From positions 1 to 23,206 of the IMG/VR virus record IMGVR_UViG_3300025853_008850: a stretch of 23,206 nucleotides of DNA; one strand, 5' to 3'. The notes beneath the pieces are model-generated. The model saw only the letters and a list, made by a program, of their open reading frames with translations. It ran no database searches and was not told the origin of the DNA. Position 1 is the first letter of the stretch. Each line of letters starts with the position of its first letter. Position numbers and translations under genes: made by a program. This DNA is from a virus. Shown here piece after piece: positions 4,687 to 22,771 of the stretch.

Positions 4687-4690
4687 TAGT

Positions 4691-4774: not shown

Positions 4775-4799
4775 CGAGCCTGCATACCTAAACGGAATC

Positions 4800-4845: not shown

Positions 4846-5910
4846 ATGAGTTTTTCACATTTCATGAGCGATTATAAGAAAAAAGCACTTGTGCTTGGTG
4901 CTGGTGGCTTTATTGGAAGTCATATGGTAAAGCGTCTCCGCGAAGAGGGATATTGGGTTCGTGGAGTTGATTTAAAGTATCCTGAGTTTTCTTCTACGAA
5001 AGCAAATGAGTTTGTTCAAGGGGATCTTCGTGACGTGAAATTTGTTTCTCGTTGTGTTCGTTTCACTGGATATCTTGGTAACTTTTATCAACAGATTGTA
5101 GACAAGTTTGCAGAACCCTTTGATGAAATCTATCAGTTTGCTGCTGATATGGGTGGAGCAGGTTTTGTCTTCACTGGAGAGAACGATGCAGATATTATGC
5201 ATAATTCTGTATCCATTAACTTGAACGTTCTTGAAGAGCAACGCAAGTTGAACGAAACCAAGGGTGTAAATAAGACTAAGATTTTCTATTCTGGATCTGC
5301 TTGCATGTATCCAGAGCATAATCAACTGGATCCTGACAACCCCGACTGCCGTGAAGAATCCGCATACCCCGCTAACCCCGATTCCGAATATGGATGGGAA
5401 AAACTATTCTCAGAGCGACTTTATTTTGCATATAATAGGAATTATGATATTCCTGTTCGTGTTGCCCGCTACCATAATATCTTTGGGCCAGAGGGCACCT
5501 GGGAGGGTGGAAGAGAGAAGGCTCCAGCTGCAATCTGCCGTAAAGTGGCTTACCTCCCAGAGGATGGTGGAGCAATCGAGGTGTGGGGAGACGGTCTACA
5601 AACTCGTTCCTTCCTGTTCATTGACGAATGTATTGAAGCAACTCGACGATTGATGGATAGTGACTTTATGGGGCCAGTCAATATTGGTTCTGAAGAGATG
5701 GTTACTATTAATCAACTTGTAGATACTGCTGCTAAAGTTGCTAGTAAAGAAGTTCAAAAGATTCATATTGATGGGCCTCTTGGTGTTCGTGGACGCAACT
5801 CAAATAATGATTTGATTCGTGAGAAACTTGGTTGGGATTACTCTCAGACTTTAGAGGAGGGTATTCGCAAGACTTATAACTGGATTCAAGAGCAAATTAA
5901 AAATCGATGA
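4846..5910 (+). CDS. GDP-mannose 3,5-epimerase (GME)
   Basis: 354 residues, extended SDR family. The enzyme epimerises GDP-D-mannose at C3 and C5 to GDP-L-galactose (GDP-L-gulose as by-product). The NAD-binding motif is GAGGFIG (18-24). The GME signatures are all present: AADMGG (99-104), SGSACMYPE (149-157, with S151 and C153), YGWEK (Y182 and K186 of YxxxK), HNIFGPEGTW (210-219), GGREKAPAA (K225, second acid/base residue), GDGLQTRSF and RGRNSNN. The length matches plant GME. ATG 4846 may be leaderless; ATG 4864 (Met7) is an alternative just before the fold. Neither has a Shine-Dalgarno. It is the first gene of the operon and overlaps the next by 4 nt. Confidence 0.93.
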   Translation: MSFSHFMSDYKKKALVLGAGGFIGSHMVKRLREEGYWVRGVDLKYPEFSSTKANEFVQGDLRDVKFVSRCVRFTGYLGNFYQQIVDKFAEPFDEIYQFAADMGGAGFVFTGENDADIMHNSVSINLNVLEEQRKLNETKGVNKTKIFYSGSACMYPEHNQLDPDNPDCREESAYPANPDSEYGWEKLFSERLYFAYNRNYDIPVRVARYHNIFGPEGTWEGGREKAPAAICRKVAYLPEDGGAIEVWGDGLQTRSFLFIDECIEATRRLMDSDFMGPVNIGSEEMVTINQLVDTAAKVASKEVQKIHIDGPLGVRGRNSNNDLIREKLGWDYSQTLEEGIRKTYNWIQEQIKNR

Positions 5911-6767
5911 AAGTATTAATCCTTGGTTCTGCAGGGCAAATTGGTGCCTATCTGACAGATTATCTACGCACAAAAGGACATGAGGTAACTGAGTTTGATG
6001 TTACTAATGGCGAAGAGTATGATTTGAGAACGATTCCTAATACAAAACTCATGCATGACATTCGTCTTGCTGACTTTGTATTCTTCCTTGCTTTTGATGT
6101 TGGTGGTTCTAGGTATCTGAAAAAATATCAACACACCTATGAGTTTATCAATAACAATACGCGGATGATGGCAAATGTATTCCAGTATTTGCAAGAATAC
6201 CGTAAGCCATTTGTGTTTGCTTCCTCTCAGATGAGTAACATGTCTTACTCACCATATGGAGTTATGAAGCGTGTTGGTGAAATGTACACCCAAAATCTTG
6301 GTGGATTGATTGTTAAGTTCTGGAATGTCTATGGTATTGAGAAAGATCATGAAAAATCTCATGTAATCACCGACTTTATTAAACGTGGATTTGAGGAAGG
6401 TGAGTTTGAAATGCTCACGGATGGAACCGAAGAACGTCAATTCCTTTACGCTGAAGATTGCTGTGAAGGACTAGAAACTATCATGGAACATTATGATAAT
6501 TTTAAATCAAATGATCCTCTTCATATTACATCATTCCGTTCCGATTCTATCAAACAAGTTGCTGAGATTATTCAAGGACAATTTAACTTGATTGGTAAGT
6601 ATGATGTAAAAATTAAACCTGGAGCCGCCAAAGACAGTGTTCAACTGGATAAAAGGAATGAAGCTGACAACTACATTCATGGATGGTGGTTGCCAAAAAC
6701 AAATTTAGAAACTGGTATTGGAAAAGTTTTTGCTGAAATGAAAAAGGAGTATGGCTACGATGACTAA
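5907..6767 (+). CDS. NAD(P)-dependent extended SDR epimerase/dehydratase
   Basis: 286 residues. The Rossmann motif is GSAGQIG (7-13), with SSQMSN (106-111) and Y117-x3-K121 (YGVMK) as catalytic elements, and FWNVYG and ERQFLYAEDC match the nucleotide-sugar domain. It is a reduced member of the UDP-sugar epimerase/dehydratase family; Ser-Ser then Gln-Met replaces the usual SSxxVYG. The substrate is unknown. Being coupled by 4 nt (ATGA) to GDP-mannose 3,5-epimerase, it may act on a GDP-hexose made by that enzyme. It lacks the TE-type dehydratase motif I would expect in a 4,6-dehydratase, so epimerase or reductase is likelier. Confidence 0.8.
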   Translation: MKVLILGSAGQIGAYLTDYLRTKGHEVTEFDVTNGEEYDLRTIPNTKLMHDIRLADFVFFLAFDVGGSRYLKKYQHTYEFINNNTRMMANVFQYLQEYRKPFVFASSQMSNMSYSPYGVMKRVGEMYTQNLGGLIVKFWNVYGIEKDHEKSHVITDFIKRGFEEGEFEMLTDGTEERQFLYAEDCCEGLETIMEHYDNFKSNDPLHITSFRSDSIKQVAEIIQGQFNLIGKYDVKIKPGAAKDSVQLDKRNEADNYIHGWWLPKTNLETGIGKVFAEMKKEYGYDD

Positions 6768-7554
6768 TCTCACACCGCTTAGAAATTTTATTAACGAACC
6801 TCATTGTGACTTGGGTTCAAATGCATGGGTTCTTGCAGAACTAGTGAGGACATTTAAGAATGGAAGATTCATTGATCTTGGCGTTCGCTATGGTTCTTCT
6901 TCTGCGATTATGTCTATTAATGCTGCAGAAAATGGAAACAAAGTACATGGATGTGACTTAAAGTTTGATGGCTTTGAGAAGAATGGAGCACGTTTTGTTA
7001 ATGAAGACTACATGTGTTATCTCGCAGACAGCGTAACGCTTGGTAAAAATTGGGATGAAGAACCATTTGATATTATCTTTGTTGATACAATTCACACTCG
7101 TGAGCAAGTTCTTGCCGAACTTTACTTCTGGTGCAATCATATTAAAGAAGGTGGGTATTTTGTCTTTCATGATTCTCACTGGGTTGGTCCAAATGGTGAA
7201 GACAATCCTGTCACAAAAGATACTTATGGTGATACGATTGGAGGAAAGAAATGGGAAAGGCCTGATGTTGCTATTACCGATTTCTTTGGACTTCCTAGAA
7301 GTGTTCGTGAAATGGATGCGTATGAAGATGAAAATGTCATCATCGGACACCATAAACCAAGTTGTGGTATGACATTTGTTCAGGTTAAGACTCTTGATGC
7401 TATTGAGAAATTTAAGAGTAACGTTGATTGGAATGAGGTATTTGAAATCCGTAATTGGTTGAACGATTTACACTTCAATCGTGACAATCCAAATTTTGTT
7501 GATTGGCAACAAGATATTGATAACATTGAAAATGAACTAGTAATCAATCCATGA
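6760..7554 (+). CDS. class I SAM-dependent methyltransferase (Methyltransf_24-like)
   Basis: 264 residues from the ATG at 6760. AAGGAG lies 10 nt upstream, while the in-frame ATG at 6751 is only 1 nt from that site and is less likely. Motif I is FIDLGVRYGSSS (37-48), an acidic residue follows in GCDLKFDG, VDTIHTREQ (108-116) corresponds to the D-x-x-H metal-site motif, and GGYFVFHDSHW (131-141) follows. This is the cephalosporin-hydroxylase/Methyltransf_24 type often found in polysaccharide clusters, where it O-methylates a sugar. It overlaps the previous gene by 8 nt and the next by 4 nt. Sugar methylation is inference. Confidence 0.8.
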   Translation: MTNLTPLRNFINEPHCDLGSNAWVLAELVRTFKNGRFIDLGVRYGSSSAIMSINAAENGNKVHGCDLKFDGFEKNGARFVNEDYMCYLADSVTLGKNWDEEPFDIIFVDTIHTREQVLAELYFWCNHIKEGGYFVFHDSHWVGPNGEDNPVTKDTYGDTIGGKKWERPDVAITDFFGLPRSVREMDAYEDENVIIGHHKPSCGMTFVQVKTLDAIEKFKSNVDWNEVFEIRNWLNDLHFNRDNPNFVDWQQDIDNIENELVINP

Positions 7555-8372
7555 CATGTTCAGTTTCTCACTGGAGCGGTAGGTTAGGCAATAACATTCA
7601 ACAAGTTGCTAATTGTCTAATGTATGCTGAAGCTAAAGGTGATACTTTCTATCAGCAATTGAATCATGATATCATTCAAAAGTTTGTTCTCAACTTTGGG
7701 ATGGAAGAAGATTCTCAAGAGTATTCTGGTAGATTCTATTCATGGGAACCACTTATCAATTGTGAAAAGAATATATTTGAAGGTGGTAATGAGATAGGAG
7801 TAACTAAAGAATACGTTTATGAAAATATTCGTAGAGTCTGTTTAAAACACATTACTCCCAATCTAAATCTTCCTCAAAAAGAATTGATTGGTGATGACAC
7901 TATTGTTATGCATTTGAGAAGTGGTGATAACTATCATCGCATTTTTAATCCACCAACAAATTATGTTCCCAATCCACTAATCTATTACTTGAACCTTATT
8001 GATAGTTTTGATAAGTGTATTTTAATTACTGAACCCGATAGAGAAAATCCTATCATTCATGAGTTAATGAAGATTGATAAAGTTCAAATTCAATCTTCAA
8101 CGGTAGATGATGATTTTGCCACACTCATGAATGCAAAGAACGTTGCTCTTTCTGGTGTAGGAACTTTTGCAATGGCAGCTGCTTTGTGTTCAACCAACAT
8201 TACAAATCTTTTCACTACAGATTTGCTATTGACTGAACACCTAAATTATAGTATGCTATTTAATACTGATGTCAAAGTGCATGTGATGGAGTTGGAAAAT
8301 TATATTCCAGTGGTTCCTTGCAGTTGGGCTAACACTGAAGAGCAAAGAAAGTTTATTTTAGATTATAGATGA
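7551..8372 (+). CDS. GT11-like (alpha-1,2-fucosyltransferase-like) glycosyltransferase
   Basis: 273 residues. The N-terminal GRLGNNIQQVA (10-20) resembles the GxLGNQxFQ motif of GT11, and MHLRSGDNY (120-128) corresponds to the H-x-R-R-G-D motif that binds the GDP part of the donor. The later segment SGVGTFAMAAALC fits the third GT11 motif position (usually NSTFSWW) only loosely, so this is a divergent member. It would transfer an L-fucose-type sugar from a GDP donor. No membrane segment. It overlaps both neighbours by 4 nt. It is one of four GT11-like genes in the operon, and the most diverged with the one at 14496. Confidence 0.7.
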   Translation: MTCSVSHWSGRLGNNIQQVANCLMYAEAKGDTFYQQLNHDIIQKFVLNFGMEEDSQEYSGRFYSWEPLINCEKNIFEGGNEIGVTKEYVYENIRRVCLKHITPNLNLPQKELIGDDTIVMHLRSGDNYHRIFNPPTNYVPNPLIYYLNLIDSFDKCILITEPDRENPIIHELMKIDKVQIQSSTVDDDFATLMNAKNVALSGVGTFAMAAALCSTNITNLFTTDLLLTEHLNYSMLFNTDVKVHVMELENYIPVVPCSWANTEEQRKFILDYR

Positions 8373-9361
8373 AAATTTTTGTAACGGGATGTGCTGGTTT
8401 GCTTGGATCAAACTACACAAGACACTTGCTTGCAAATGGACATGAAGTCATTGGTATTGATGATTTATCCGGAGGGTATAAGGCATTTTTGCCCAAAGGT
8501 GAAAAATTCACATTTGCAAAGTTTGATTTAGAAAGAAGAAAAAAAGTAGTTGAATTGTTTGAAGAGCACAAACCAGATGTTCTTCTTCATTTCGCTGCTT
8601 ATGCTGCAGAGGGATTGTCTCCATTTATTCGTAATTTCAATTATAGAAATAATCTTATCTGCTCTGCTAACTTGATTAATGAGTGTATTACTCATAATAC
8701 CAAATTCATTTTCACTTCAAGCATGGCAGTTTATGGTGAACAAGAACCTCCGTTCACTGAAGATAAACGTCCTCAACCTGTTGATCCTTATGGTATTGCA
8801 AAATATGCCGTAGAATGTGATTTGAAACTGGCTCATGAGCAGTTTGGGCTTAGATATAATATTGTTCGTCCTCATAATGTTCTTGGTATCTATCAAAATA
8901 TTTGGGATAAGTATCGTAATGTAATTGGTATCTTTATTCGCAAAACTTTGAATGGACAACCAATCCTTGTATATGGTGATGGAGAACAGACTCGTGCGTT
9001 CTCTGACATCAAATACTACATGGAACCATTTGATAAACTTCTGACAGACTATGATGGTGAAATATTTAACATCGGTGCAGATAAGCATTTTAGTTTGAAT
9101 GAGGTTGCTGAAACAGTTCAAAAGATTGGTAGAAAGTATGGTTATGAAGTTCCTATTGAACATGGAGAACCACGTCATGAGGTTAAACATGCTTATTGTG
9201 ATCACACAAAAGCAAAAACTATGCTAGACTTTAAGGATGAAACCAACCTTGAAGAGTTGATTGAATCCATGTTTGTTTGGGCAATAAAACAACCAAACAG
9301 AAAAGTAAAACATATGGATTACGAAGTTACAAAAGACATTTATGATTACTGGAGAAAATAA
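8369..9361 (+). CDS. UDP-glucose 4-epimerase-like extended SDR
   Basis: 330 residues, close to the usual GalE length. The motifs are GCAGLLG (7-13), IDD at the end of strand 2, LLHFAAYAAEG (72-82), SSMAVYGE (117-124) and Y141-x3-K145 (YGIAK), with RPHNVLG and YGDGEQTRAFSDI in the substrate domain. These fit an NAD-bound C4 epimerase or a related nucleotide-sugar epimerase. The usual GalE AG-x-K-A-V-G loop is replaced by AAYAAEGLSPF, so the substrate may differ from UDP-glucose. The last 30 residues extend beyond a minimal fold. Its TAA shares a base with the next ATG. Confidence 0.85.
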   Translation: MKIFVTGCAGLLGSNYTRHLLANGHEVIGIDDLSGGYKAFLPKGEKFTFAKFDLERRKKVVELFEEHKPDVLLHFAAYAAEGLSPFIRNFNYRNNLICSANLINECITHNTKFIFTSSMAVYGEQEPPFTEDKRPQPVDPYGIAKYAVECDLKLAHEQFGLRYNIVRPHNVLGIYQNIWDKYRNVIGIFIRKTLNGQPILVYGDGEQTRAFSDIKYYMEPFDKLLTDYDGEIFNIGADKHFSLNEVAETVQKIGRKYGYEVPIEHGEPRHEVKHAYCDHTKAKTMLDFKDETNLEELIESMFVWAIKQPNRKVKHMDYEVTKDIYDYWRK

Positions 9362-9987
9362 TGTTACTTAGTTATAACTCATTAATTAGACAGTACAATA
9401 TAAACGTTACTGGTGTTATTCATGTTGGTGGACACATTGGTGATGAACTCCCCGAATATAAAAATGGTGGAGTAGAAAATATTATTATTTTTGAACCACA
9501 ACAACATTGCTTTGAAAAACTTACTAAGAGGGTAGATGAAGTTGGACTTCCTGCTAAACTTGTCAACAAAGCCCTTGGTAATATATCTGGCAGAGTACAG
9601 ATGACCTCTGATCCAACTGGTTTGTGTGGTTCTATTCTTAAACCAAAACTTCATCTTGAGTTGTCACCAGATGTCATTTTTTCTGAAACTCTTGATGTAG
9701 AAATTTCTAAACTTGATAATGAAATCCCTGAAAACCATACATATAATTTCTTAAATATGGATACTCAAGGTTATGAATTGGAAGTTTTGAAAGGCGGGGC
9801 AAGGACGCTTGAAAAAATTGATTATGTTTATACTGAAGTGAATCAAGCAGAAGTTTATGAAAATAATGCCATGATTCATGAATTAGATGAATTTCTTCTA
9901 AAATATGGCATTGAGAGAATTGCTACGGGATGGCATGGATCTCAGACTTGGGGGGATGCTTTTTATGTTAAGAAGGGATTGATTTAA
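9361..9987 (+). CDS. FkbM-family methyltransferase
   Basis: 208 residues. SAM-binding motif I is VIHVGGHIGDE (19-29), the acidic end of strand 2 is FEP (44-46), and the FkbM signature FLNMDTQGYELEVLKGG (130-146) includes D134. The C-terminal TWGDAFYVK is also typical. FkbM proteins O-methylate sugars or polyketides, and they are regular members of phage and cyanobacterial glycan clusters. With no membrane part it would methylate a free or growing glycan in the cytosol. It overlaps each neighbour by one base (TAATG). Confidence 0.9.
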   Translation: MLLSYNSLIRQYNINVTGVIHVGGHIGDELPEYKNGGVENIIIFEPQQHCFEKLTKRVDEVGLPAKLVNKALGNISGRVQMTSDPTGLCGSILKPKLHLELSPDVIFSETLDVEISKLDNEIPENHTYNFLNMDTQGYELEVLKGGARTLEKIDYVYTEVNQAEVYENNAMIHELDEFLLKYGIERIATGWHGSQTWGDAFYVKKGLI

Positions 9988-10844
9988 TGAGAGTATTTGA
10001 TTCTTTTATCTTTTTCAATGAACTTGAACTGTTAGAAATGCGTCTCAACATCTTGAACGATGTTGTAGATTATTTTGTTCTTACAGAATCTCCATTTACT
10101 GTTAGTGGTAATGAGAAACCTCTTTACTATCAAGAAAATAAAGATAAGTTTGGTAAGTTCAATGATAAAATTATTCATAATGTAACAGAAACTATTCCTA
10201 ACAACTTTAACCATATGTTAGAGAAGACAAAGTTTCATGTTGCATATAATGATAAAGATCCTTATGGAACTAGATTCATTGATATTCCTATTAGATTCCA
10301 GAGAGCAATTTACAATAGAAATGCAAGTGCATTTGGTATTGAAAAAGCAGGTATAACTGATGATGATTTGGTAATCACTAGCGATGCTGATGAAATTATT
10401 AACCCATATGTTCTAGAAGATTTGTCTTGGTTTAATTCAGACAACCATTATATTGCTCTTTGTAATGCATATTATTATAAACTGAACTTTCTTTATCAAG
10501 ATGATTGGATGGGTTCAAGACTTTGCACTTGGAAACACTTGAAAAATACTACAATTGATCAGCATCGTCAAGATCATAAAAATGCATATCGAATCGAAGA
10601 TGGTGGTTGGCACTTTAGTTTCTTGGGTAACGCTGAAAACTTCAAACTTAAATTAGCTTCTTACGAGCACACTGAGAATAATACTGAAGTTAATATCTCT
10701 AATGCAGAAGAGAAAGTTGAGATGGGATTGGATCCACTCAATAGGGGAATGGCGTACAGAGCAGTTCCTATCGATGAAAGTTATCCGAAGTATATTCAAA
10801 ATAACCAGGAGAAATACGCTGAATTTATCAAACCATGGAACTGA
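9987..10844 (+). CDS. GT17-family glycosyltransferase (MGAT3-like)
   Basis: 285 residues. The N-terminus VFDSFIFFNELELLEMRLN (3-21) followed by VVDYFVLTESPFTVSG is the hallmark of Glyco_transf_17. The metal-binding D-x-D is in TSDADEI (131-137), and GGWHFSFLG (206-214) is the conserved C-terminal motif. GT17 is best known from the enzyme adding bisecting GlcNAc to animal N-glycans; bacterial and viral members have mostly unknown acceptors. No signal or membrane anchor is present, unlike the animal enzymes. It overlaps the previous gene by 1 nt and the next by 10 nt. Confidence 0.88.
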   Translation: MRVFDSFIFFNELELLEMRLNILNDVVDYFVLTESPFTVSGNEKPLYYQENKDKFGKFNDKIIHNVTETIPNNFNHMLEKTKFHVAYNDKDPYGTRFIDIPIRFQRAIYNRNASAFGIEKAGITDDDLVITSDADEIINPYVLEDLSWFNSDNHYIALCNAYYYKLNFLYQDDWMGSRLCTWKHLKNTTIDQHRQDHKNAYRIEDGGWHFSFLGNAENFKLKLASYEHTENNTEVNISNAEEKVEMGLDPLNRGMAYRAVPIDESYPKYIQNNQEKYAEFIKPWN

Positions 10845-11758
10845 TTGAAGGAGTTTTGTTATCTCAACTTTGCGACTATTCATTTGGCGAACAATCTGGA
10901 CAATGGGGGAGAATTTATTCTCACTTCATGAAAGATGCAAACTTGCTTAACACTGACTTTATCTCTAAAATGTTTGAGGTTAAGAAAAGTCGTGATTATA
11001 TGACTCTCTTTATTGATAATATTCGTTTATATAAAAGAGAAATAAAAGAGGTTAAACCGCAGGATTGGCCAATTGTTGGTGCAATGATGGAGAAAAGCGA
11101 TCTTCTAAAACTTTGTGGCAACTTCCCCGATATGAAGTTTATTATCTTTACAAATTTAGAAGATACGCCTATTGATGAGTATATTTTTAACTCTATTCCT
11201 GATAATGTTATTCGTATATGTGCTGTTAATGCTATATCCCATGGTGGAAAGGTGGTAGCAGCACCTTATGGTGTTCAGAGAAGAATGGCTCCTGCAGACA
11301 ATAGAATTGAAATTCTTAAAGAACAAATGAAAGTGAGTGTGTCAGATGCGTATAAACTTTTGCATGTGAGTATTAATGAAGATTCCCATTCGGAAAGAAA
11401 AGGACTTAGAGACAGATTTAAAAATTATCCATGGGCAGTTGTAGACACTGGTAGAGTTGATTACTCAACGTTCCTTGAGAGGATGAATAGTTGTAAATTT
11501 GTTCTTTGTCCGAGAGGAAATGCAATTGATTGTCATAGAAACTGGGAAGTTCTTTATATGCGTAGAGTTCCAGTTATGAAACGCACTACATACCTTGAAC
11601 ATCTATTTAAAGATTATCCTGTTCTTTTTGTTGATGACTATTCTCAAATCACAGAAGAGTTGTTAACAAAGAACTCTCAGCTCTTCATCACCGCACAGGA
11701 GATGGATTTATCTAAACTTGACGTTTATAATTTTTTTGAAACATGGAAAAAACCCTAG
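10835..11758 (+). CDS. exostosin/GT47-like glycosyltransferase
   Basis: 307 residues. The C-terminal half carries the exostosin-like signature: MNSCKFVLCPRGNAIDCHRN (217-236), then WEVLYMRRVPVM and YPVLFVDDYSQI. This is the nucleotide-sugar-binding region of GT-B transferases of the GT47 type. The N-terminal half has no clear motif but is well ordered, with LLHVSINEDSHSERKGLRDR as the linker into the second Rossmann domain. It would add a sugar from a UDP or GDP donor. The ATG lies 10 nt inside the previous gene, and the 3' end overlaps the next by 16 nt. Confidence 0.75.
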   Translation: MELIEGVLLSQLCDYSFGEQSGQWGRIYSHFMKDANLLNTDFISKMFEVKKSRDYMTLFIDNIRLYKREIKEVKPQDWPIVGAMMEKSDLLKLCGNFPDMKFIIFTNLEDTPIDEYIFNSIPDNVIRICAVNAISHGGKVVAAPYGVQRRMAPADNRIEILKEQMKVSVSDAYKLLHVSINEDSHSERKGLRDRFKNYPWAVVDTGRVDYSTFLERMNSCKFVLCPRGNAIDCHRNWEVLYMRRVPVMKRTTYLEHLFKDYPVLFVDDYSQITEELLTKNSQLFITAQEMDLSKLDVYNFFETWKKP

Positions 11759-12441
11759 TAGTATCAAATCACAATTCTGATCTAGAATGGCTCTCAACAA
11801 CATATGATTATGGTTTCTCTCCAGAGAACACCATCATCTACGATAGAAGTGATGAAGTAAAGGATTGGAACCACCTTGGAGAAAGTATCCGTTCTCCAAA
11901 TGTTGGTGAGAACATCTACGATATTATGCGTTATATTGTAGAACATTATGATAATCTTCCTGATGTCTGTATCTTTATAAAAGGAAATATGTTTCAACGT
12001 CCTCCTGAAAGAGGAGGTGCTGAGTATTATACAACTCATGAAAGGTTCTATCGTGCTCTTACCGCAGAGTATTTCTTGCCCATTGAACGATTTCATGAGT
12101 CTACATCGTTTGTAGTTAATGGCGGCGGTTTCATTCAACCAACATGGGAAGCTGTCACAAATCAAACGATCTATACTAGACACTTTGCAACTTTCCCTGA
12201 AATGTTGAATAAGTTGTTTATAAATCCTCCCAATTTTCCATTTAATAGGTTTGCTCCTGGTGGAAATTATGTTGTTCCTAGAGCAAACATTCTTAAGTAT
12301 AGTAAGTTGTTTTATGAAAAACTTCAGTTCTTTGTTTCATATGAACCACCTGATGAGTTTCAAAGTACCTCTGGAGAATCTTATTTAATTGAACGCCTTC
12401 TTTATATAATGTGGACAGAAGATTTACAAGAGAAAGAATGA
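11743..12441 (+). CDS. DUF3431-like protein, probable sugar transferase
   Basis: 232 residues. LVVSNHNSDLEWL (5-17), IIYDRSD (31-37), NVGENIYDIMRYIVEHYDNL (53-72), IFIKGN (77-82) and the C-terminal APGGNYVVPRANIL (171-184) with SGESYLIERLLYIMW follow the DUF3431 pattern. That family is widespread in fungi and scattered in bacteria and giant viruses, and it is thought to be glycosyltransferase-related, but no reaction is established to my knowledge. The operon context supports a sugar-related role. There is no membrane segment. It overlaps the previous gene by 16 nt and the next by 4 nt. Confidence 0.6.
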   Translation: MEKTLVVSNHNSDLEWLSTTYDYGFSPENTIIYDRSDEVKDWNHLGESIRSPNVGENIYDIMRYIVEHYDNLPDVCIFIKGNMFQRPPERGGAEYYTTHERFYRALTAEYFLPIERFHESTSFVVNGGGFIQPTWEAVTNQTIYTRHFATFPEMLNKLFINPPNFPFNRFAPGGNYVVPRANILKYSKLFYEKLQFFVSYEPPDEFQSTSGESYLIERLLYIMWTEDLQEKE

Positions 12442-15386: not shown

Positions 15387-16084
15387 TTGATTTGCCTGAT
15401 GTTACATTAATTTCTGTAGACACTACAGATGACTTGAGTGGCACTCTTCGGGGTGTCTATACAAGTATGGCAGGTATTAACTTTGGTGCCGTGAAATTGA
15501 TTACAACTCAAGAGCAAATAGACAGCAATTCTAATCTTGTTCAAGATGGTATCATTATGGAAACTCCTGTTCGTGATATCAAAAACTATAATGACTACAA
15601 TTATTATGTTGTTTATCACCTTCATGGACATGTAGATACCACTCATTGTTTGCTTGTTCAACCAGATGGATTTGTATTGTTTCCCGATAAATGGGATAAT
15701 AAGTGGCTTGAGTATGACTACATTGGTGCTCCATGGGCATATGTAGAGGATTCTTATATTGATCCATTTGGAAATCACCATCGAGTAGGTAATGGTGGAT
15801 TCTCATTGAGAAGTAAAAAGTTTCTTGAGGTTCCTACAAAAGTAGAAGTTCCTTGGGAAACTAATAATAGTGATTTTTACTGGATGCCTGAAGGTGTGGT
15901 AAACTATCATGAGGACGGTAATGTGTGCGTCCATAATAGACACATTTTTATTGAGCAAGGATGTAAATATGCTCCTGTAGATGTAGCAGTTAGGTTCTCA
16001 CAGGAAACCCGAGTGCCTGAGTGTGAAGGAGTAACACCATTTGGATTCCATTATAGATTACCCCCTGGAGTTGAACTATCATGA
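15383..16084 (+). CDS. DUF5672-family protein, likely glycosyltransferase
   Basis: 233 residues. LVQPDGFVLFPDKWD (91-105), YDYIGAPW (111-118), VGNGGFSLRS (135-144), an E-D pair near 168-180, GCKYAPVDVAVRFSQE (193-208) and PFGFH are the conserved line-up of DUF5672. These proteins are widespread in polysaccharide loci and look like GT-A transferases, with the Q-x-D-G motif replacing D-x-D. No reaction is established for this one. There is no membrane segment. It overlaps each neighbour by 4 nt. Confidence 0.75.
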   Translation: MIDLPDVTLISVDTTDDLSGTLRGVYTSMAGINFGAVKLITTQEQIDSNSNLVQDGIIMETPVRDIKNYNDYNYYVVYHLHGHVDTTHCLLVQPDGFVLFPDKWDNKWLEYDYIGAPWAYVEDSYIDPFGNHHRVGNGGFSLRSKKFLEVPTKVEVPWETNNSDFYWMPEGVVNYHEDGNVCVHNRHIFIEQGCKYAPVDVAVRFSQETRVPECEGVTPFGFHYRLPPGVELS

Positions 16085-16890
16085 TTGGACATAATCACAT
16101 TGGAAAGAACGGAAGATTTGGTAATCAAATGTTCCAATATGCAGCAACTAGAGGCATTGCTTCAGCTCGTGGATATGATTTTATCATTCCTGATGGCCCT
16201 AGAACAGACGATGAATTTGTTGATGAGGAGCAACAACACAAACTCTTCATGGCATTTAAGATGCCTGGAGTTAAGAATGTTGGTATGCTAGAAGCAGGAT
16301 ATAAACAAGAAAGTTCTTTCAGGTATGACAAAGAACTTGTAAAAACTTGTCCTGATAATGTGAATCTCTATGGTTACTTTCAAACAGAAAGATACTTCTT
16401 TCATATTGAAGAAGAACTTCGTAAGGACTTTGAGTTTCGTGATGAAGTAAAGAAACTCTGTGATGATATCTGGAAAGAGATTGTAGTTGATGAAGGTTTT
16501 TCTGAAGCAATCTCACTACACATTCGTAGGACTGATTATCTTCATAAGTCAGATTTTCATCCTGTTCTTCCTATGAGTTATTATGAGGAAGCACTCTCCA
16601 AACTTCCAAAAGACATTCCTGTATTTGTATTCACTGATGATTCTCAGTGGGCATTTGGGCATGAGTTCTTTGCTGATGATAGATTCTTTATCTCTGAGAG
16701 TGACAACATTCATGATATGTGTTTGATGTCTATGTGTAACTACAACATTATTGCTAACTCTACTTTCTCTTGGTGGGGAGCATGGTTGGCAGGACACAAT
16801 AATGTGATTGGCCCTAAACTATGGTTTGGTGCTAAAGGTGAAGATGCTACTGACTTGTTTGTAAACGAATGGGAGTATATTGATGTCTGA
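16081..16890 (+). CDS. GT11 family (alpha-1,2-fucosyltransferase-type)
   Basis: 269 residues with the full GT11 motif set: NGRFGNQMFQYAATRG (10-25), HIRRTDY (147-153, the H-x-R-R-x-D donor site), FVFTDD and NSTFSWWGAWL (226-236). GT11 enzymes transfer L-fucose from GDP-L-fucose; some inverting GT families also accept GDP-L-galactose. The length and motif positions match bacterial FutC/WbsJ-type enzymes. It is clearly a paralogue of the gene at 19054; both also share CPDNV, an aromatic YF pair and a second charged helix in the middle. It overlaps the previous gene by 4 nt and the next by 8 nt. Confidence 0.92.
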   Translation: MIGHNHIGKNGRFGNQMFQYAATRGIASARGYDFIIPDGPRTDDEFVDEEQQHKLFMAFKMPGVKNVGMLEAGYKQESSFRYDKELVKTCPDNVNLYGYFQTERYFFHIEEELRKDFEFRDEVKKLCDDIWKEIVVDEGFSEAISLHIRRTDYLHKSDFHPVLPMSYYEEALSKLPKDIPVFVFTDDSQWAFGHEFFADDRFFISESDNIHDMCLMSMCNYNIIANSTFSWWGAWLAGHNNVIGPKLWFGAKGEDATDLFVNEWEYIDV

Positions 16891-17644
16891 AATGAGCATC
16901 GCCATTCCTTGTCATGATAGGGGAGAGAATGGCCCAATCTGGTTAGAAGAGTTATTTCAAACTTTAAAGACGCAAACCTATCAAGATTTTGATATTGTAA
17001 TTTCAGATCAAAGCAAGAACGATTTGATTCTGGATAAGTGTAAGGAGTGGAGTGATATTTTTGAGTTCACCTATGTGCGATATGAAGGTACTGCTCCTTG
17101 TGATAATATCAACACTGCACTAGAAAATTGTGAAGGAAGAATCGTTAAAATCATTTTCTCTGATGACGTTTTTACAAGAGATAATGCACTTCAAAAAATC
17201 TATGATACATTTGCTCAAGAGAATTGTAAGTGGTTGTTCACTGGGTATTGTGAAACAGATGATGGAAAAACTTTTTATAGTAATAGGAGACCTGTATGGA
17301 CAAGAGAAACTATTGAAGGTAGAAACTTATTGAGCAGTCCATCTGCAGTTGCTTTCCTCAATGAATATAAGGTTTTGTTTGATTCTAAAGTTAAACTTTT
17401 GTTAGATGTCGATTTCTATCATAGAATGAGAGTGAAAAATGGTATGCCATTCTTCATTGAGGAAGTCATGTTTGCAAATCGAAATCATGATAATAGAGTA
17501 AGTAGTCAAGCAACCTCTCAATATGATTGTGTTATTCAGCATGATACTGGTGGATGGTTGATGAATAAATCAGAGTATGAATATATAAGAGAAAAATATA
17601 AAGCATTTTTTGAAAACAATAAACGTTATCCAGATGAGAATTGA
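16883..17644 (+). CDS. GT2-family glycosyltransferase
   Basis: 253 residues. The ATG at 16883 has GGGAG 7 nt upstream; a TTG one codon earlier is not needed. MSIAIPCHDRG (4-14), an FQTLKTQTYQDFDIVISD stretch (25-42) and FSDD (92-95, the metal-binding D-x-D equivalent) give a GT-A fold, with LLLDVDFYHRM in the acceptor domain and HDN RVS near the end. It lacks a membrane helix, so it is a soluble elongating transferase and not a synthase. The donor is unknown. It overlaps the previous gene by 8 nt and the next by 11 nt. Confidence 0.88.
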   Translation: MSEMSIAIPCHDRGENGPIWLEELFQTLKTQTYQDFDIVISDQSKNDLILDKCKEWSDIFEFTYVRYEGTAPCDNINTALENCEGRIVKIIFSDDVFTRDNALQKIYDTFAQENCKWLFTGYCETDDGKTFYSNRRPVWTRETIEGRNLLSSPSAVAFLNEYKVLFDSKVKLLLDVDFYHRMRVKNGMPFFIEEVMFANRNHDNRVSSQATSQYDCVIQHDTGGWLMNKSEYEYIREKYKAFFENNKRYPDEN

Positions 17645-18443
17645 TTTATCAAAAGCAACATTCGTTATCCCTATTCGTATTGAATCTTCAGATAGGCTAA
17701 GGAATGTCATTACCAGCACAGCATTTCTTTTAGAAAACTTTGATACTAATATCATAATCAAAGAAGTAGATTCGGAATCTGTATTTGAAAAAGATGCTCT
17801 TCCTATCTTAGAAGATATTCTTGAAGTTGATATTAACGTAAAGCATATCTTTGAGAAAAGTGATGAACCTCTGTTTCATAGGCAGAGGGTTCTAAATGAA
17901 ATGATTATGGAATCAGATACAGAGGTAGTTGTTAACTATGATTGTGATGCTATTCTCCCATTAGAATCATATGAAACTGCATATCGTAGAATCATTGATG
18001 GGACACATGATGTTGTGTATCCCTACGGAAGTGGAATGTATCAGAAGCAAGTGAAAGCAGATGATTCTGTAGTCTCTAGATTTTTGCAAACGAGAAACTA
18101 TGATTACCTTGATGAGGTTTCTAATCTTCATACCTCAGATTTTGGTTGGGTTCAGTTCTTTAATCGCCAAGTTTATATTGATGGCGGACTGGAGAATGAG
18201 AACTTCAAAGCTTATGCTCCAGAAGATAAAGAAAGATTTTACAGATTCAACACGTTAGGATATAATGTTGGAAGAATCGAAAATTATGTCTATCATTTAG
18301 AACATGCAAGAGGAGAAAACTCTTGGTTCTCCAATCCACACATGCAATCAAACATGCAGGAGTGGGAAAAGATTCAATCAATGAGTAAAGAAAGTCTTAT
18401 TGAATACTATTCACAGCAAGAATATCTAAAAAAATACCAATGA
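17634..18443 (+). CDS. GT-A glycosyltransferase (GT2 / galactosyltransferase C-domain-like)
   Basis: 269 residues from the ATG at 17634; a TTG at 17610 is a less likely start. FVIPIRIESSDRLRNV (10-25) begins the GT-A domain, and the metal-binding D-C-D is in NYDCDAILP (101-109). The C-terminal part (FGWVQFFNRQVYIDGG at 170-185, then YAPEDKERFYRFNTLGY at 194-210) resembles the Glyco_transf_7C region of chondroitin-polymerase-type enzymes, where G-W and E-D bind donor and metal. H215-region residues (YVYHLEH) close the site. The donor is unknown. It overlaps the previous gene by 11 nt and the next by 4 nt. Confidence 0.82.
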   Translation: MRIDLSKATFVIPIRIESSDRLRNVITSTAFLLENFDTNIIIKEVDSESVFEKDALPILEDILEVDINVKHIFEKSDEPLFHRQRVLNEMIMESDTEVVVNYDCDAILPLESYETAYRRIIDGTHDVVYPYGSGMYQKQVKADDSVVSRFLQTRNYDYLDEVSNLHTSDFGWVQFFNRQVYIDGGLENENFKAYAPEDKERFYRFNTLGYNVGRIENYVYHLEHARGENSWFSNPHMQSNMQEWEKIQSMSKESLIEYYSQQEYLKKYQ

Positions 18444-19045
18444 AAACAAAAATTACTATCGATAAAAATTTTATATTCTCTTCTGCATATGAAGAGTATA
18501 AGTATCTTCTAAAATATATGCCAGAATTTCCAGAAGGAAATCCTTCTGGAAATTATAATGTTCCTGGAATTAGTGACTATCCATTTTATTCATATTTTTC
18601 CGGTTTGGTTGATAGCACAACTATTTTAGAGATTGGAACTTGTTTAGGTGGTTCTGCAGTTATGATGAGTCATAATATTACCAACAAAATTATCAGTTAT
18701 GATGTGGTGGATAGATTAGAACTTTTTAAATCAATTAATCGAAATATAGAATTTAGAGTTGGAGATTTTATGCAAGATTCGAGTATTAATTATGATGAAG
18801 TTCGTTTAATCTCAATAGATGCAGCTCATGATGGACATAGTGAAAAAAATATGTTAGAATACTTGGAAAATATTTGGGAAGGTGGATTGGTGTACATGGA
18901 CGATATTCGTCTTATTGGAGTAGCTTGGGATAACATCGATAAAGATAGGCATGAAGTTTTTGATATCACAGAAATATCTCATGGCATCAATGGATCTGGG
19001 TTAATTAATTTTAATCGATATTATGATTTAAACTTTATTGAATAA
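18440..19045 (+). CDS. class I SAM-dependent methyltransferase (Methyltransf_24-like)
   Basis: 201 residues. Motif I is LEIGTCLGGSAV (63-74), then VGDFM (107-111), IDAAHDG (126-132, the D-x-x-H-x-x metal motif) and GGLVYMDDI (148-156). It is shorter than the methyltransferase at 6760 and not closely similar outside the motifs, so the two probably methylate different positions or sugars. The N-terminal 55 residues (with FPEGNPSGNYNVPGIS) are a family-specific cap. It overlaps the previous gene by 4 nt. After it comes the only gap in the operon, 8 nt. Confidence 0.8.
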   Translation: MKTKITIDKNFIFSSAYEEYKYLLKYMPEFPEGNPSGNYNVPGISDYPFYSYFSGLVDSTTILEIGTCLGGSAVMMSHNITNKIISYDVVDRLELFKSINRNIEFRVGDFMQDSSINYDEVRLISIDAAHDGHSEKNMLEYLENIWEGGLVYMDDIRLIGVAWDNIDKDRHEVFDITEISHGINGSGLINFNRYYDLNFIE

Positions 19046-19053
19046 TAGTTTTT

Positions 19054-19911
19054 ATGTTAGCGTTTAATCAAATTGGAAGTCTTGGTAGACTTGGCAATCA
19101 GATGTTTGAATATGCCGCTCTAAGGGGCATTGCTGCCAAGCATGGTTATGAATGGTGTATCCCTCCATTTAATCGTAAAGGTATTGAGAACTACAGTCTT
19201 CATAGTTGCTTCAAGCTAGAATCTGTGAAGGATGAGAATCTAAATGTCATGGAACATTATCAATATGTTCAAGAGAGATTCTTTCACTTTGATGATGAAC
19301 TTGTAGAAAAGTGTCCTGACAATGTAAGTCTTCATGGATTCTTCCAATCAGAAAAATACTTTAAGCATATTTCTGATGAGATTCGTAAAGATTACACTTT
19401 CCATGATGAGCATCTTGGCCCATGTAAAGAGATGATGAATAGTCTTGAGGGGCAAGAACCTATTATGCTTCATGTTCGTCGTGGAGATCCTAATCTTGTA
19501 GATCCGCGTGGATTCAAGTGGAGTTATACTCAGTGTGGTTCAATGCACCCTGTTCAACCTCTTGAGTATTATGAAAGAGCACTTGCTGAGTTTGATGATA
19601 ATCAACCAGTTGTTGTATTCTCCGATTCTCCTGAGTGGGTTAAAGAACAAGAGTTCTTCTCTGGTGATAGATTCTTAATTTCAGAACCACAAGAAAAGTA
19701 TGAAGATGGTTCTTATACACCATACGCCGACTTGTGCTTGATGTCTTTATGCTCTCATGCTATTATTGCTAATAGTAGTCTGAGTTGGTGGGGTGCTTGG
19801 TTAATTTCAAACCCAAACAAAAAGGTTATTGCTCCTAAGATGTGGTTTGGCCCTGCATACGCAGACAAAGATACTAAAGATCTTTATTGTCCTGATTGGT
19901 TAGTCTTATGA
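19054..19911 (+). CDS. GT11 family (alpha-1,2-fucosyltransferase-type)
   Basis: 285 residues with all GT11 motifs: LGRLGNQMFEYAALRG (10-25), HVRRGD (140-145), FSDS (189-192) and NSSLSWWGAWL (240-250). It keeps the canonical H-x-R-R-G-D where its paralogue at 16081 has T for G. It carries an insertion of about 14 residues between that motif and the EYYERAL helix, including WSYTQCGSMHP, which is likely to shape acceptor choice. The donor would be GDP-L-fucose or GDP-L-galactose. The start lies 8 nt after the previous stop, with no clear Shine-Dalgarno. It overlaps the next gene by 4 nt. Confidence 0.93.
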   Translation: MLAFNQIGSLGRLGNQMFEYAALRGIAAKHGYEWCIPPFNRKGIENYSLHSCFKLESVKDENLNVMEHYQYVQERFFHFDDELVEKCPDNVSLHGFFQSEKYFKHISDEIRKDYTFHDEHLGPCKEMMNSLEGQEPIMLHVRRGDPNLVDPRGFKWSYTQCGSMHPVQPLEYYERALAEFDDNQPVVVFSDSPEWVKEQEFFSGDRFLISEPQEKYEDGSYTPYADLCLMSLCSHAIIANSSLSWWGAWLISNPNKKVIAPKMWFGPAYADKDTKDLYCPDWLVL

Positions 19912-20666
19912 ACAGAATCGAAAATTACGAAGAATTAAAAAACAGAATTACTTCTTGGATTAAAGAATACGCAAACACTAATGGCATTGAAGCACTTGTT
20001 GTTGGTGTATCTGGTGGTATTGATTCTGGTGTAGTTTCTACTCTTTGTGCAGAAACTGGACTACCGACTTATGTTCTGTCTATGCCTTTGAACTCTAGTG
20101 CAAAGAATGACGACTTGTCTGATTCATACACTAGTGCGCTTGAAAAGAAGTATGAAAATGTAACTAAAGTTAGAGTAGATTTGTCTCCTGTGTATGAGAG
20201 GTTTATTAGCAGCCTAGATTTCTGGATTGGTGATGGTGAGTTTACCTCAAACGATTTGGCAAATGCCAATACTAAATCACGTCTTCGCATGGTAACTCTA
20301 TATCAGATTGCTGCGAATGTTAGTGGTATTGTTGTTGGCACTGGTAATAAAGTTGAAGATTATGGTGTAGGATTTTACACTAAATATGGTGATGGTGGTG
20401 TTGATATTGCACCAATTGCAGATCTTTATAAGACAGAAGTATGGGAACTTGGAAAACATCTTGGTGTAGATCAACGTATCATTGACGCTCCTCCTACAGA
20501 TGGACTCTGGGAAGATAGTCGAACTGATGAAGATCAGATTGGCGCATCATACGCTGAACTTGAAGAAGCAATGGAGTTGGGAACTGGCTCTGCAGTTGAA
20601 GTTCTCAATAAATTCAATGCTCAGAACAAGCACAAAATGGAACCTATCCCTACATTCAAACTATGA
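19908..20666 (+). CDS. NAD synthetase (NadE-like, ammonia-dependent type)
   Basis: 252 residues from the ATG at 19908, which overlaps the previous stop as ATGA. The PP-loop SGGIDSG (35-41) binds ATP. NTKSRLRM (121-128), VVGTGNKVEDYGVGFYTKYG (142-161), GGVDIAPIADLYKTEV (163-178), PPTDGLW (195-201) and TDEDQIG (206-212) are the NadE signatures. The enzyme amidates nicotinic-acid adenine dinucleotide to NAD. There is no glutaminase domain, so ammonia is the nitrogen source. In a sugar operon it could keep up NAD for the dehydrogenase that follows (4-nt overlap) and the epimerases. A sugar amidotransferase role is less likely given how complete the NadE motifs are. Confidence 0.9.
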   Translation: MNRIENYEELKNRITSWIKEYANTNGIEALVVGVSGGIDSGVVSTLCAETGLPTYVLSMPLNSSAKNDDLSDSYTSALEKKYENVTKVRVDLSPVYERFISSLDFWIGDGEFTSNDLANANTKSRLRMVTLYQIAANVSGIVVGTGNKVEDYGVGFYTKYGDGGVDIAPIADLYKTEVWELGKHLGVDQRIIDAPPTDGLWEDSRTDEDQIGASYAELEEAMELGTGSAVEVLNKFNAQNKHKMEPIPTFKL

Positions 20667-21778
20667 AAATTGGAATTATCGGAGCAGGACGACTTGGCAT
20701 TTGCCTTGCACTTCTTTGCGAAAAGGCAGGTTATGATGTATTAGTTTCTGACATCAGAGAAGACTATATTAAATCTCTTCAGAATAAAGAAATTGATACT
20801 AATGAACCTGGGGTTGCTGAACTTCTCAAGCAATCGACAAACCTGAGAGCAACAACTGATAATAAAAAAGTCATCGAAGAGTGTGATGTAGTTTACACAT
20901 TAGTTGCAACTCCTTCACTTCCAACAGGAGACTATGATGTTTCTGCTATTTGGAAAGTGATTGATGATATTGTTTCTTCTGAAGTATATAATAAAACATT
21001 TGTCGTTGGTTGCACTACTAATCCTGGAGACTGTGAAAAGTTTCAGGATTATCTTGATGATACTAACTCTGGGTGGGATGTTTTCTATAATCCAGAGTTT
21101 ATTGCTCAAGGATCTATCATTAGAGATTTACAACATGCCGACATGGTTCTGATTGGTGGACATAAATCAAAGACATATGATAATCTTTATAAGATGTATC
21201 ATCAAATTCAAGTAAGCGAACCTAAGATTAGTTTAATGTCAACAACGGCTGCTGAACTAGTTAAACTTGCAGTTAATTGCTATTTGACTACTAAAATTAG
21301 TTATGCCAATATGGTTGGGGAGGTTATGACTCTTTCTGGATTTGAACATGAGATTGAAAGCGTTCTTGGTGCTATTGGAGATGACTCTAGGGTTGGTAAA
21401 AAATATTTAAATTATGGATATGGATTTGGTGGACCATGCCTTCCTAGAGATAATCGTGCATTCGCTGCCTATGCAAAAAAACTTGGATTGACATACAATC
21501 TTGGCCAAACTACCGATGATTTTAATGATGAACATGCAAAGTTTTTAGTAGATTATTTCATTAAAAAGAATGAAAAAAATCTTCCTTTTTGTTTTCATTA
21601 CATCACCTATAAAGAAGGAACAGATATTCTTACAGAAAGTCAACAATATCGCTTGTGTTTAGATCTTTTAGAAAAAGGATATAAGGTTTATGTTATTGAA
21701 GATTCTATCGCGTCTCAATGCGATGAAAGAATTATTTTTGGTGTACCGTGTGAGGAAGTTTTTTGGATTGAACTATGA
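20663..21778 (+). CDS. UDP-glucose/GDP-mannose 6-dehydrogenase family
   Basis: 371 residues, somewhat shorter than typical (about 390-440). The NAD motif is GIIGAGRLG (4-12). NPEFIAQGSIIRDLQHAD (143-160), AELVKLAVNCYLTTKISYAN (197-216, with K201 and N205) and GYGFGGPCLPRD (252-263, catalytic C259 and D263) are the family's catalytic blocks. The C-terminal domain keeps ITYKEGTDILTES (314-326) but ends early after a second strand. It oxidises the C6 alcohol to a carboxylate with two NAD, making UDP-GlcA or a GDP-linked uronic acid. Pro precedes the cysteine where Ser is common. It overlaps NadE by 4 nt and GT25 by 4 nt. Confidence 0.9.
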   Translation: MKIGIIGAGRLGICLALLCEKAGYDVLVSDIREDYIKSLQNKEIDTNEPGVAELLKQSTNLRATTDNKKVIEECDVVYTLVATPSLPTGDYDVSAIWKVIDDIVSSEVYNKTFVVGCTTNPGDCEKFQDYLDDTNSGWDVFYNPEFIAQGSIIRDLQHADMVLIGGHKSKTYDNLYKMYHQIQVSEPKISLMSTTAAELVKLAVNCYLTTKISYANMVGEVMTLSGFEHEIESVLGAIGDDSRVGKKYLNYGYGFGGPCLPRDNRAFAAYAKKLGLTYNLGQTTDDFNDEHAKFLVDYFIKKNEKNLPFCFHYITYKEGTDILTESQQYRLCLDLLEKGYKVYVIEDSIASQCDERIIFGVPCEEVFWIEL

Positions 21779-22596
21779 ATGTTTTATTAGACAAAAATAA
21801 GTCCACATTCAAACTCAAGAATATTGGGCCAATCTATTATCTCAATCTCGATGGACAACCAGAGAGACGTGAGTATATGGAGAACCAATTTAAGTATTGG
21901 GAAGTAGAAAACTATGAGCGTATCTCTGCCTATGATGGTAGAGATGATGACTTGAGTGATATTATCTCTGGACGATATCCAGAGATGATGACCTCTGGGG
22001 AGATTGGATGTACAACGTCTCACCTGAAAGCAATTAAACACTATCTGGAAACCTCTGATAGTCCTTATGCGATTATCATGGAGGATGATTGCAGTTTAGA
22101 TTTAGTTCGTTTCTGGAACTTTACCTGGACTGATTTCTATGCACACTTTCCATATGATTATGATGTAGTTCAGATTGCTATTATTTGCACAGGAGATATT
22201 CATGTCAAACTTCACAAGAGGTTTGTTAATGACTTCTCTACAGCATGTTATGTAATCAACAGATATCATGCTGAGAAACTTGTAAGGCTTCATTGTCGTG
22301 GAGATAAGTATAAACTTGATAATGGTTGTAAACCACGTCCAGTTGCTGATGACTTGATTTACAATTCAGGAAATACTTTCTCCATTCCTTTGCTTCTTTA
22401 TAGAACTGAATTGGGTTCTAGTATTCACCCAGAGCATGTTGATGCATTCCACAAAGGAAATTATCAAGCTCAATCTTCTTTCTGGGAACAGAACGGTTCA
22501 AGTATTGACATTAAGGACTACATGAACTATGATCCTTACCTAGGCAGAATCACAGAGAACACTGCCACCAAGAGGACGGAAAACCCAACCTCTTGA
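21775..22596 (+). CDS. GT25-family glycosyltransferase (LPS-type)
   Basis: 273 residues. YYLNLDGQPERRE (21-33), RISAYDG (49-55), GEIGCTTSHLKAI (75-87) and YAIIMEDDCSLD (98-109, with the E-D-D metal site) are the GT25 line-up, followed by a less conserved half with VADDLIYNSGN and LLLYRTELGSSIHPEH. GT25 members add Gal or Glc to LPS cores in bacteria and to collagen in animals. This is the last gene of the operon. Its stop codon lies within the -35 of a possible promoter (22593-22598). No terminator with a T-run follows, so the operon transcript may read on into the porin-like gene. Confidence 0.88.
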   Translation: MNVLLDKNKSTFKLKNIGPIYYLNLDGQPERREYMENQFKYWEVENYERISAYDGRDDDLSDIISGRYPEMMTSGEIGCTTSHLKAIKHYLETSDSPYAIIMEDDCSLDLVRFWNFTWTDFYAHFPYDYDVVQIAIICTGDIHVKLHKRFVNDFSTACYVINRYHAEKLVRLHCRGDKYKLDNGCKPRPVADDLIYNSGNTFSIPLLLYRTELGSSIHPEHVDAFHKGNYQAQSSFWEQNGSSIDIKDYMNYDPYLGRITENTATKRTENPTS

Positions 22597-22626: not shown

Positions 22627-22628
22627 AC

Positions 22629-22747: not shown

Positions 22748-22771
22748 AGTAAAAATTACGAGGTATCTAAA

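Follow-up and report, generated by a model that had tools for sequence, protein, structure and literature searches.

A collinear glycan-gene cassette in a T4-like cyanophage contig, with promoter-like elements in an upstream terminator and within the block

Cyanophage genomes can carry 'lipopolysaccharide' (LPS) gene clusters, and Sullivan et al. 2010 left open whether these are functional or 'stuffer DNA' (PMC3037559). Here, we address this question for the IMG/VR virus record IMGVR_UViG_3300025853_008850, analyzed whole (23,206 nt, hereafter the window), in which 21 genes on the + strand, g01 to g21, span positions 4846 to 22596. Comparison with relatives indicates that this block is an inherited, collinear, and selected gene set with exchangeable transferase positions. 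Its transcription and glycan chemistry we infer, and we think it probable that it represents a cassette with which a cyanomyovirus remodels glycans, lodged in a conserved slot of the genome and modifying a host-made glycan early in infection. The original prediction for this DNA had described a cyanophage-like glycan operon with transferases, nucleotide-sugar enzymes, and methyltransferases, a description that our analysis of this cyanophage supports, and had further proposed that the pathway was self-contained and could do without a host locus in most of its steps.

In two contigs from uncultured phages, L092 and L093, 20 of the 21 genes are found in unchanged order, and a third, L090, has 19; g17 is the gene absent from these collinear cassettes, and the order is kept in very divergent phages. 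In the comparison with L092, synonymous sites are near saturation, and the ratio of nonsynonymous to synonymous change (pN/pS) is 0.09-0.33 in 19 of 20 genes and 0.55 in g15. Overall, pN/pS ranges from 0.01 to 0.55 and is mostly below 0.35, with g15 at 0.53-0.55. Of 264 homologues in 17 collinear contigs, 258 are intact. All six broken genes belong to L127, an otherwise collinear contig in which they look like the product of error-rich sequencing or assembly. The nearest relative, L087, is a mosaic in which blocks of 92-98% nucleotide identity surround divergent genes (amino acid identity of 45% for g15, 61% for g10, 60% for g06, and 77% for g07) and from which g19-g20 are absent; therefore, single genes appear to have been swapped in place, as in O-antigen loci. 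Collectively, collinearity, purifying selection, and the intactness of the copies speak against the 'stuffer DNA' doubt.

The segE gene, the tRNA array, the outer-membrane-like protein, and DNA matches to Synechococcus phages, which provide the best matches and most of the window's DNA relatives, identify the contig by its content as a fragment of a T4-like cyanophage (Kyanoviridae), a virus infecting marine cyanobacteria. The slot runs from tRNAs through a wcaG RNA, a GDP-mannose 3,5-epimerase gene, glycan genes, and a GT25 gene to an outer-membrane-like protein gene. In the cultured phages S-H68, RN05-S, SynMITS9220M01, and S-SCSM2R, tRNAs, a GDP-mannose 3,5-epimerase gene, and sugar genes ending in a g21 homologue are followed by an outer-membrane-like, DUF680, or hypothetical gene and then by pstS/hli, and the slot is filled by differing cassettes of 13-26 genes. 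The tRNA-to-cassette order of the window is repeated in RN05-S and SynMITS9220M01. The window's sugar-gene run near tRNAs shares slot and flanks with these four phages, with hli/pstS expected past the contig end, and Sullivan et al. 2010 placed LPS clusters in the vicinity of hli03 and close to tRNAs (PMC3037559). By these marks, the block belongs to an already known class, the cyanomyovirus glycan or 'LPS' cassette in a variable slot. The occurrence of LPS-type clusters in some cyanophages, to which the original prediction pointed, agrees with those published for P-SSM2, S-SM2, and S-SSM7 (PMC3037559), and the breadth that had seemed exceptional is not, given these large clusters and the 26 genes that SynMITS9220M01 holds in the same slot.

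Homing-type nucleases flank the slot, an HNH endonuclease between tRNA-Ile and tRNA-Met (3392-3769) and segE at the left contig end, and could drive cassette exchange. The tRNA clusters of S-H68 (L003 1187-1397) and RN05-S (L004 32592-32801, - strand) contain manA RNAs. In the group L255, L257, and L259, misbinning probably explains a 'Rhodobacteraceae' metagenome-assembled genome (MAG) contig that holds a wcaG RNA and tRNAs alongside a cyanophage-type cassette, as well as the 69% identical epimerases on two 'Bifidobacterium breve' MAG contigs.

The 21 open reading frames (ORFs) encode 201-431 amino acids (aa). With the best-supported starts, which are those listed in Table 1 for g01, g03, g10, g15, g16, and g19, the block begins at 4864, and a count of its junctions confirmed the packing first described, in which 19 of 20 overlap by 1-16 nt and one (g17-g18) has an 8-nt gap. 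The overlap is exactly 4 nt at ten junctions. A clear Shine-Dalgarno sequence of its own is missing in most of the genes, which fits coupled translation of the block. Packing of this density is hardly unusual for the slot, as 21/25 junctions overlap in SynMITS9220M01 and 14/19 in RN05-S. Profile or structure matches back the proposed labels GT17 (g07), GT25 (g21), DUF5672 (g13), DUF3431 (g09), E1-type dehydrase (g11), and NadE (g19); an AlphaFold model of g09 was discarded (predicted local distance difference test score, 50). Among the four proposed GT11 enzymes, g14 and g18 hold by Pfam and g12 by profile-profile comparison (99%), and g04 is tentative (59%): fucosyltransferases lead its weak fold matches, none of which falls below E 1e-3, a weak lead only. 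For g08, called 'GT47-like', we found nothing beyond a sub-threshold RXYLT1_C match.

The proposal of a self-sufficient pathway fares differently. The 21 proteins lack membrane segments, and all are predicted to be soluble. No initiating transferase, flippase, polymerase, ligase, or ABC exporter was found among them by Pfam, and no profile matched a nucleotidyltransferase. The TDE dehydratase motif is absent in all four short-chain dehydrogenases/reductases (SDRs; g01, g02, g05, and g10), and the block has no 4,6-dehydratase. The substrate of g11 must therefore come from elsewhere, and the solubility of all 21 proteins together with the missing motif argues that the cassette modifies host-made material and is not a substitute for a host locus.

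How such a block might be transcribed is suggested by the sequence in front of it. About fifteen bases 3' of the wcaG RNA begins the hairpin of an intrinsic terminator, and a predicted sigma-70-type promoter for the operon, P1, is embedded in this terminator. In 115 distinct wcaG copies, mostly from a motif scan blind to neighbours, a terminator lies 3' of wcaG in 107, compared with 5.4% of 575 control stretches, and the -35 of the next promoter lies inside the terminator hairpin in 86, compared with 1.7% of controls. Other copies have TTGACA (22) or TTTACA (13) at the same place. The TTGCAT class of copies was selected on TTGCATAAA; around the selected sequence, the stem retains standard base pairs despite many substitutions, and in 47/49 distinct copies TATAAT comes after a 17-nt spacing. 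Upstream of wcaG, the median distance to the end of the nearest ORF is 33 nt, homologues of the 72-aa ORF are found in many loci, and promoter-like matches (≥10/12) are depleted (2/106 vs 9%). The simplest reading is that wcaG and the terminator form the 3' end of the upstream transcript and that the next operon has its own promoter, a geometry that makes it less likely that wcaG acts as the 5' leader of the downstream gene. P1 would be early because it is of sigma-70 type; the outer-membrane-like gene downstream of the block has a late-type ATAAATA. In these cyanophages, operon junctions appear repeatedly to be built, with or without wcaG, as a terminator hairpin whose loop contains the -35 of the following promoter, and loci L003-L251 hold 108 such composites.

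A second promoter-like element, P2, lies inside g10. It is present at the same place in at least 24 distinct g10 homologues, all at least 57% identical to g10, whereas for other genes equally strong matches are seen in 0-10% of copies, except g09 (25%) and g16 (29%). Consensus matches over the region are no commoner than in shuffles (promoters, 76 vs 69.8 ± 7.7; terminators, 11 vs 8.3 ± 3.3), and internal hits therefore mean little without conservation. Scanning for synonymous conservation with a sliding window did not discriminate, because the less divergent g01 dominated the result, and the test was replaced by one on rare codons. Of 22 non-redundant copies, 21 retain the Ile codon ATA, which is rare (11% use), and 21 retain the -35 GGA, with the codons between the boxes varying freely; only 5 of the 5,426 codon columns of the operon hold a rare codon so conserved. 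L090, L092, and L093 retain the P2 TATAAT despite changed neighbouring amino acids. These patterns indicate that P2 is a promoter-like element conserved at the DNA level, and g11-g21, which it precedes, therefore probably form a nested sub-operon. Internal promoters and terminators splitting the block had been named as evidence against a single operon: we found no sign of an internal terminator and one conserved promoter-like element. Another promoter-like match, inside g16 (18238), was rejected, as it is not kept in relatives. The highest synonymous conservation of the operon is in g01 (window 5602-5616, 5497, and 5608) and includes rare TCC and ACC codons, which could reflect low divergence or an overlapping element.

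Regarding the sugars that the cassette might make, alignment of g01 to 2c59 shows that the diagnostic residues of GDP-mannose 3,5-epimerases (PMC8787198) are all kept: the Ser-Tyr-Lys triad, the catalytic Cys and Lys, Arg306, Arg243, and Asn203 (AtGME numbering). No GDP-fucose pathway is encoded within the window, and GDP-L-galactose is accepted by several fucosyltransferases (PMC8787198). Among 22 phage records selected for their wcaG, 13/14 with GT11 and 1/8 without it also encode either this epimerase or GDP-mannose dehydratase (Fisher p = 4e-4). In g11, the PAHH motif at 215 has His in place of the pyridoxal phosphate lysine, and Cys 190, 248, 250, and 262 are spaced C-X57-C-X1-C-X11-C. 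The iron-sulphur cysteines of E1 follow C-X57-C-X1-C-X7-C, so that the last interval differs; by its active-site histidine and cysteines, g11 is assigned to the E1-type dehydrases. The match of g19 to TIGR00552 far exceeds the cut-off of 63.65 bits, and the ATP-binding SGGxDS is present as SGGIDS. Solved NadE enzymes end in a C-terminal HKR, whereas phage homologues of g19 that reach the C terminus have HKM. Away from contig ends, g19 and g20 occur together in 22 loci and never singly. The role of the HKM/HKR motif is not established and the difference does not fix the substrate of g19, but the strict linkage and the HKM leave room, speculatively, for a uronamide-forming role. It is a tentative and rather doubtful proposal that the phage makes a portion of glycan that may be missing from its host, with g01 supplying GDP-L-galactose to GT11 'fucosyltransferases' in place of GDP-L-fucose and g19-g20 acting as a two-step uronamide module. 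In this joint reading, we speculate that g20 oxidizes a nucleotide sugar to a uronate and that g19, freed from NAD synthesis, amidates it with ATP and ammonia. NadE-like genes also adjoin the epimerase gene in two Nitrospirae MAG contigs (L267 and L331), echoing the phage association.

Our favoured explanation is that the cassette most likely adds sugars, L-galactose among them, to a surface glycan made by the host, and does so early in infection. At this early stage, host RNA polymerase would initiate at P1 and, for g11-g21, also at P2, and transcription would run through the overlapping, translationally coupled genes to the terminator near 23179. The soluble enzymes would convert host GDP-mannose and other nucleotide sugars, with g01 yielding GDP-L-galactose and g05, g10, g11, g20, and g19 further unusual sugars. 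GT11, GT2, GT17, and GT25 enzymes would attach these to a host-made lipid-linked or surface glycan, g03, g06, and g17 would supply methyl caps, and assembly and export would be left to the host. Plausibly, the altered coat would keep further phages from adsorbing to the infected cell or conceal the cell from grazers. Several points weigh against this explanation. Expression of the operon and the glycan itself are deduced from sequence; the contig is a fragment, and other parts of the phage genome may encode the missing steps; and the -35 of the window, TTGCAT, agrees with the consensus at only 3/6 positions. In addition, the control stretches for the junction were drawn from the same loci and are mostly coding, the GT11-epimerase association is confounded, as both may merely belong to glycan cassettes, and the acceptor could instead be a virion protein.

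This last possibility, that the enzymes decorate tail-fibre, capsid, or outer-membrane-like particle proteins to hide the particle or tune adsorption, fits the 21 soluble, cytoplasmic enzymes expected for a phage-protein acceptor, as well as the outer-membrane-like gene that comes next in the window and the outer-membrane or DUF680 gene next in S-H68, RN05-S, and SynMITS9220M01. However, P1 is of the sigma-70 (early) type, whereas the next gene has a T4-type late promoter motif, and enzymes of the FkbM, GT11, GT25, and uronate types typically belong to envelope glycan synthesis. We know of no virion glycan here and consider virion glycosylation unlikely. Functionless stuffer DNA for headful packaging seems far less probable still: such clusters do make up much of the extra genome in the largest cyanophages (PMC3037559), but purifying selection, intact copies, an order kept in very divergent phages, inseparable gene pairs, and conserved promoter elements all argue to the contrary.

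Acquisition of a complete pathway from a host locus is likewise highly improbable, although pairs of the genes do occur in host genomes. The g01-g02 pair is found in two Prochlorococcus single-cell assemblies (78-79% and 64%) and g10-g11 in another genome of the same host family (58% and 69%). However, g11 has a counterpart above 60% identity in only 3/300 genomes of this family, and the neighbourhoods fetched hold at most one further close block gene. In the picocyanobacterial genomes searched, we found pieces and no complete copy of the 21-gene cluster; such a copy, in a sequenced host and with a known product, was what the original prediction had named as grounds for its refutation. A different alternative concerns control of the operon, with wcaG as a metabolite riboswitch governing terminator read-through from an upstream promoter, as in classical attenuation. 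The RNA has been published as a candidate cis-regulatory riboswitch of downstream genes (PMC2864571), and it usually precedes sugar genes and directly precedes a terminator. Yet the operon has its own promoter past the terminator, and aptamer-antiterminator pairing was tested twice and not found: wcaG plus spacer pairs no better with its own terminator arm (-9.40 kcal/mol) than with swapped arms (-9.26 ± 0.14 kcal/mol), in a test that easily detected the true partner arm of a positive control (-13.1 vs -6.8). Moreover, the terminator-promoter composite precedes the cassettes of L098, L109, and L111 without a recognizable wcaG. Read-through control is thus improbable in our view, and any ligand control may act by a route other than base pairing.

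Table 1. Features of the window, with window coordinates and the evidence for each assignment
Feature	Position	Strand	Evidence
segE-like GIY-YIG endonuclease, cut by contig end; left flank of slot	3..383	+	Pfam SegE_GIY-YIG E 5e-52
Eight tRNA genes (Arg, Gly, Asn, Val, Ser, Pro, Ile, Met), small ORFs interspersed	651..3852	+	ARAGORN
Predicted promoter of upstream transcription unit, perfect sigma-70-type TTGACA-N17-TATAAT	3853..3881	+	sequence
72-aa conserved cyanophage ORF, stop codon abutting wcaG RNA	4468..4686	+	PHROG 35121 E 9e-21
wcaG RNA (RF01761)	4686..4785	+	Rfam full length, 96.7 bits (gathering threshold 42), E 1e-17
Intrinsic terminator: 10-bp hairpin 4800-4824, loop GCATA, T run ending 4829	4800..4829	+	stem arms covary, 49 distinct copies
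Predicted promoter P1: -35 TTGCAT (4808-4813) within hairpin, 17-nt spacer, -10 TATAAT (4831-4836)	4808..4836	+	sequence, sister copies
g01 GDP-mannose 3,5-epimerase (longest ORF from 4846)	4864..5910	+	PDB 2c59 E 7e-87; eight diagnostic residues kept
g02 extended SDR, NAD-dependent epimerase/dehydratase family	5907..6767	+	Pfam PF01370
g03 methyltransferase (Methyltransf_24 / CmcI-like)	6760..7554	+	Pfam PF13578
g04 probable fucosyltransferase-superfamily transferase (tentative)	7551..8372	+	HLRSGD motif; hhalign probability 59%; weak fold matches FUT8/POFUT2/NodZ
g05 UDP-hexose 4-epimerase-like SDR	8369..9361	+	PDB 4zrm E 6e-40
g06 FkbM-type methyltransferase	9361..9987	+	PF05050, TIGR01444
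g07 GT17 glycosyltransferase	9987..10844	+	PF04724 E 9e-29
g08 putative transferase (sub-threshold RXYLT1_C / exostosin-like)	10835..11758	+	PF24785 18.8 bits, cut-off 27
g09 DUF3431, putative transferase	11743..12441	+	PF11913 29.3 bits, cut-off 25
g10 short SDR (epimerase/reductase type)	12438..13226	+	PF01370; without TDE motif
P2, promoter-like: TGGACA-N18-TATAAT, TG before -10, inside g10, 144 nt upstream of g11	13040..13069	+	synonymous-site conservation
g11 E1-type (RfbH-like) NDP-4-keto-6-deoxyhexose 3-dehydrase	13214..14509	+	PDB 3bcx E 5e-67; PAHH histidine; cysteines
g12 GT11-like transferase	14496..15386	+	hhalign to GT11 profile, probability 99%
g13 DUF5672, putative transferase	15383..16084	+	PF18922 E 7e-19
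g14 GT11	16081..16890	+	PF01531 E 3e-25
g15 GT2, most variable position of the cassette	16883..17644	+	PF00535
g16 GT2-like	17634..18443	+	weak PF00535; PHROG 15655
g17 methyltransferase	18440..19045	+	PF13578 slightly under cut-off
g18 GT11	19054..19911	+	PF01531 E 3e-25
g19 NadE-like ammonia-dependent synthetase	19908..20666	+	TIGR00552 183 bits; PDB 3fiu E 1e-41
g20 UDP-glucose/GDP-mannose dehydrogenase family, short C-terminal domain	20663..21778	+	TIGR03026 227 bits; PDB 3gg2 E 1e-33
g21 GT25	21775..22596	+	PF01755 E 2e-13
T4-type late-promoter-like GATAAATAA, 5' of outer-membrane-like gene	22619..22627	+	sequence
Cyanophage outer-membrane-like beta-barrel protein, likely start 22772; right flank of slot	22730..23137	+	PF24653 E 7e-51
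Intrinsic terminator closing the unit	23158..23179	+	9-bp stem then T run

The glycan-remodelling cassette proposed here adds to what is known a selected, collinear gene set in uncultured phages, the wcaG-terminator-promoter junction, and the conserved internal promoter-like element in g10. These findings bear on the question raised in 2010 of function versus packaging filler, as the cluster in the window is selected, collinear, and equipped with predicted promoters. They also name candidate activities, L-galactosylation and possibly uronamide synthesis, by which phages may rewrite the surfaces of abundant photosynthetic cells.

Among known systems, the Kyanoviridae phages S-H68, RN05-S, S-B05, RB11-B, and S-B43 resemble the window in slot, GT25 3' end, and tight packing, with a GDP-mannose 3,5-epimerase 86-89% identical and g11 77% identical to those of the window. 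In the two examined in full, S-H68 and RN05-S, only 8/21 window genes have homologues of at least 40% identity, the order is partly different, and the cassettes, unlike that of the window, open with cytidylyltransferase and 4,6-dehydratase genes. SynMITS9220M01 shares the slot and the wcaG-terminator-promoter start, but its 21.9-kb cassette has heptose/phosphosugar content, and only g01 and g21 are close to window genes. Cyanomyovirus sugar genes near tRNAs and hli are likewise known from P-SSM2, S-SM2, and S-SSM7 (PMC3037559) and from S-SCSM1 (PMC9602691), which, like the window, has GDP-mannose 3,5-epimerase and fucosyltransferases; these four phages differ from the window in gene content, and the papers left function and transcription open. 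Finally, whereas the published wcaG motif (RF01761; PMC2864571) is a riboswitch candidate, the wcaG RNA of the window looks like the 3' end of an upstream transcript with a terminator holding the next promoter, a testable reading to set beside the published guess, and the same junction is present in cultured phages.

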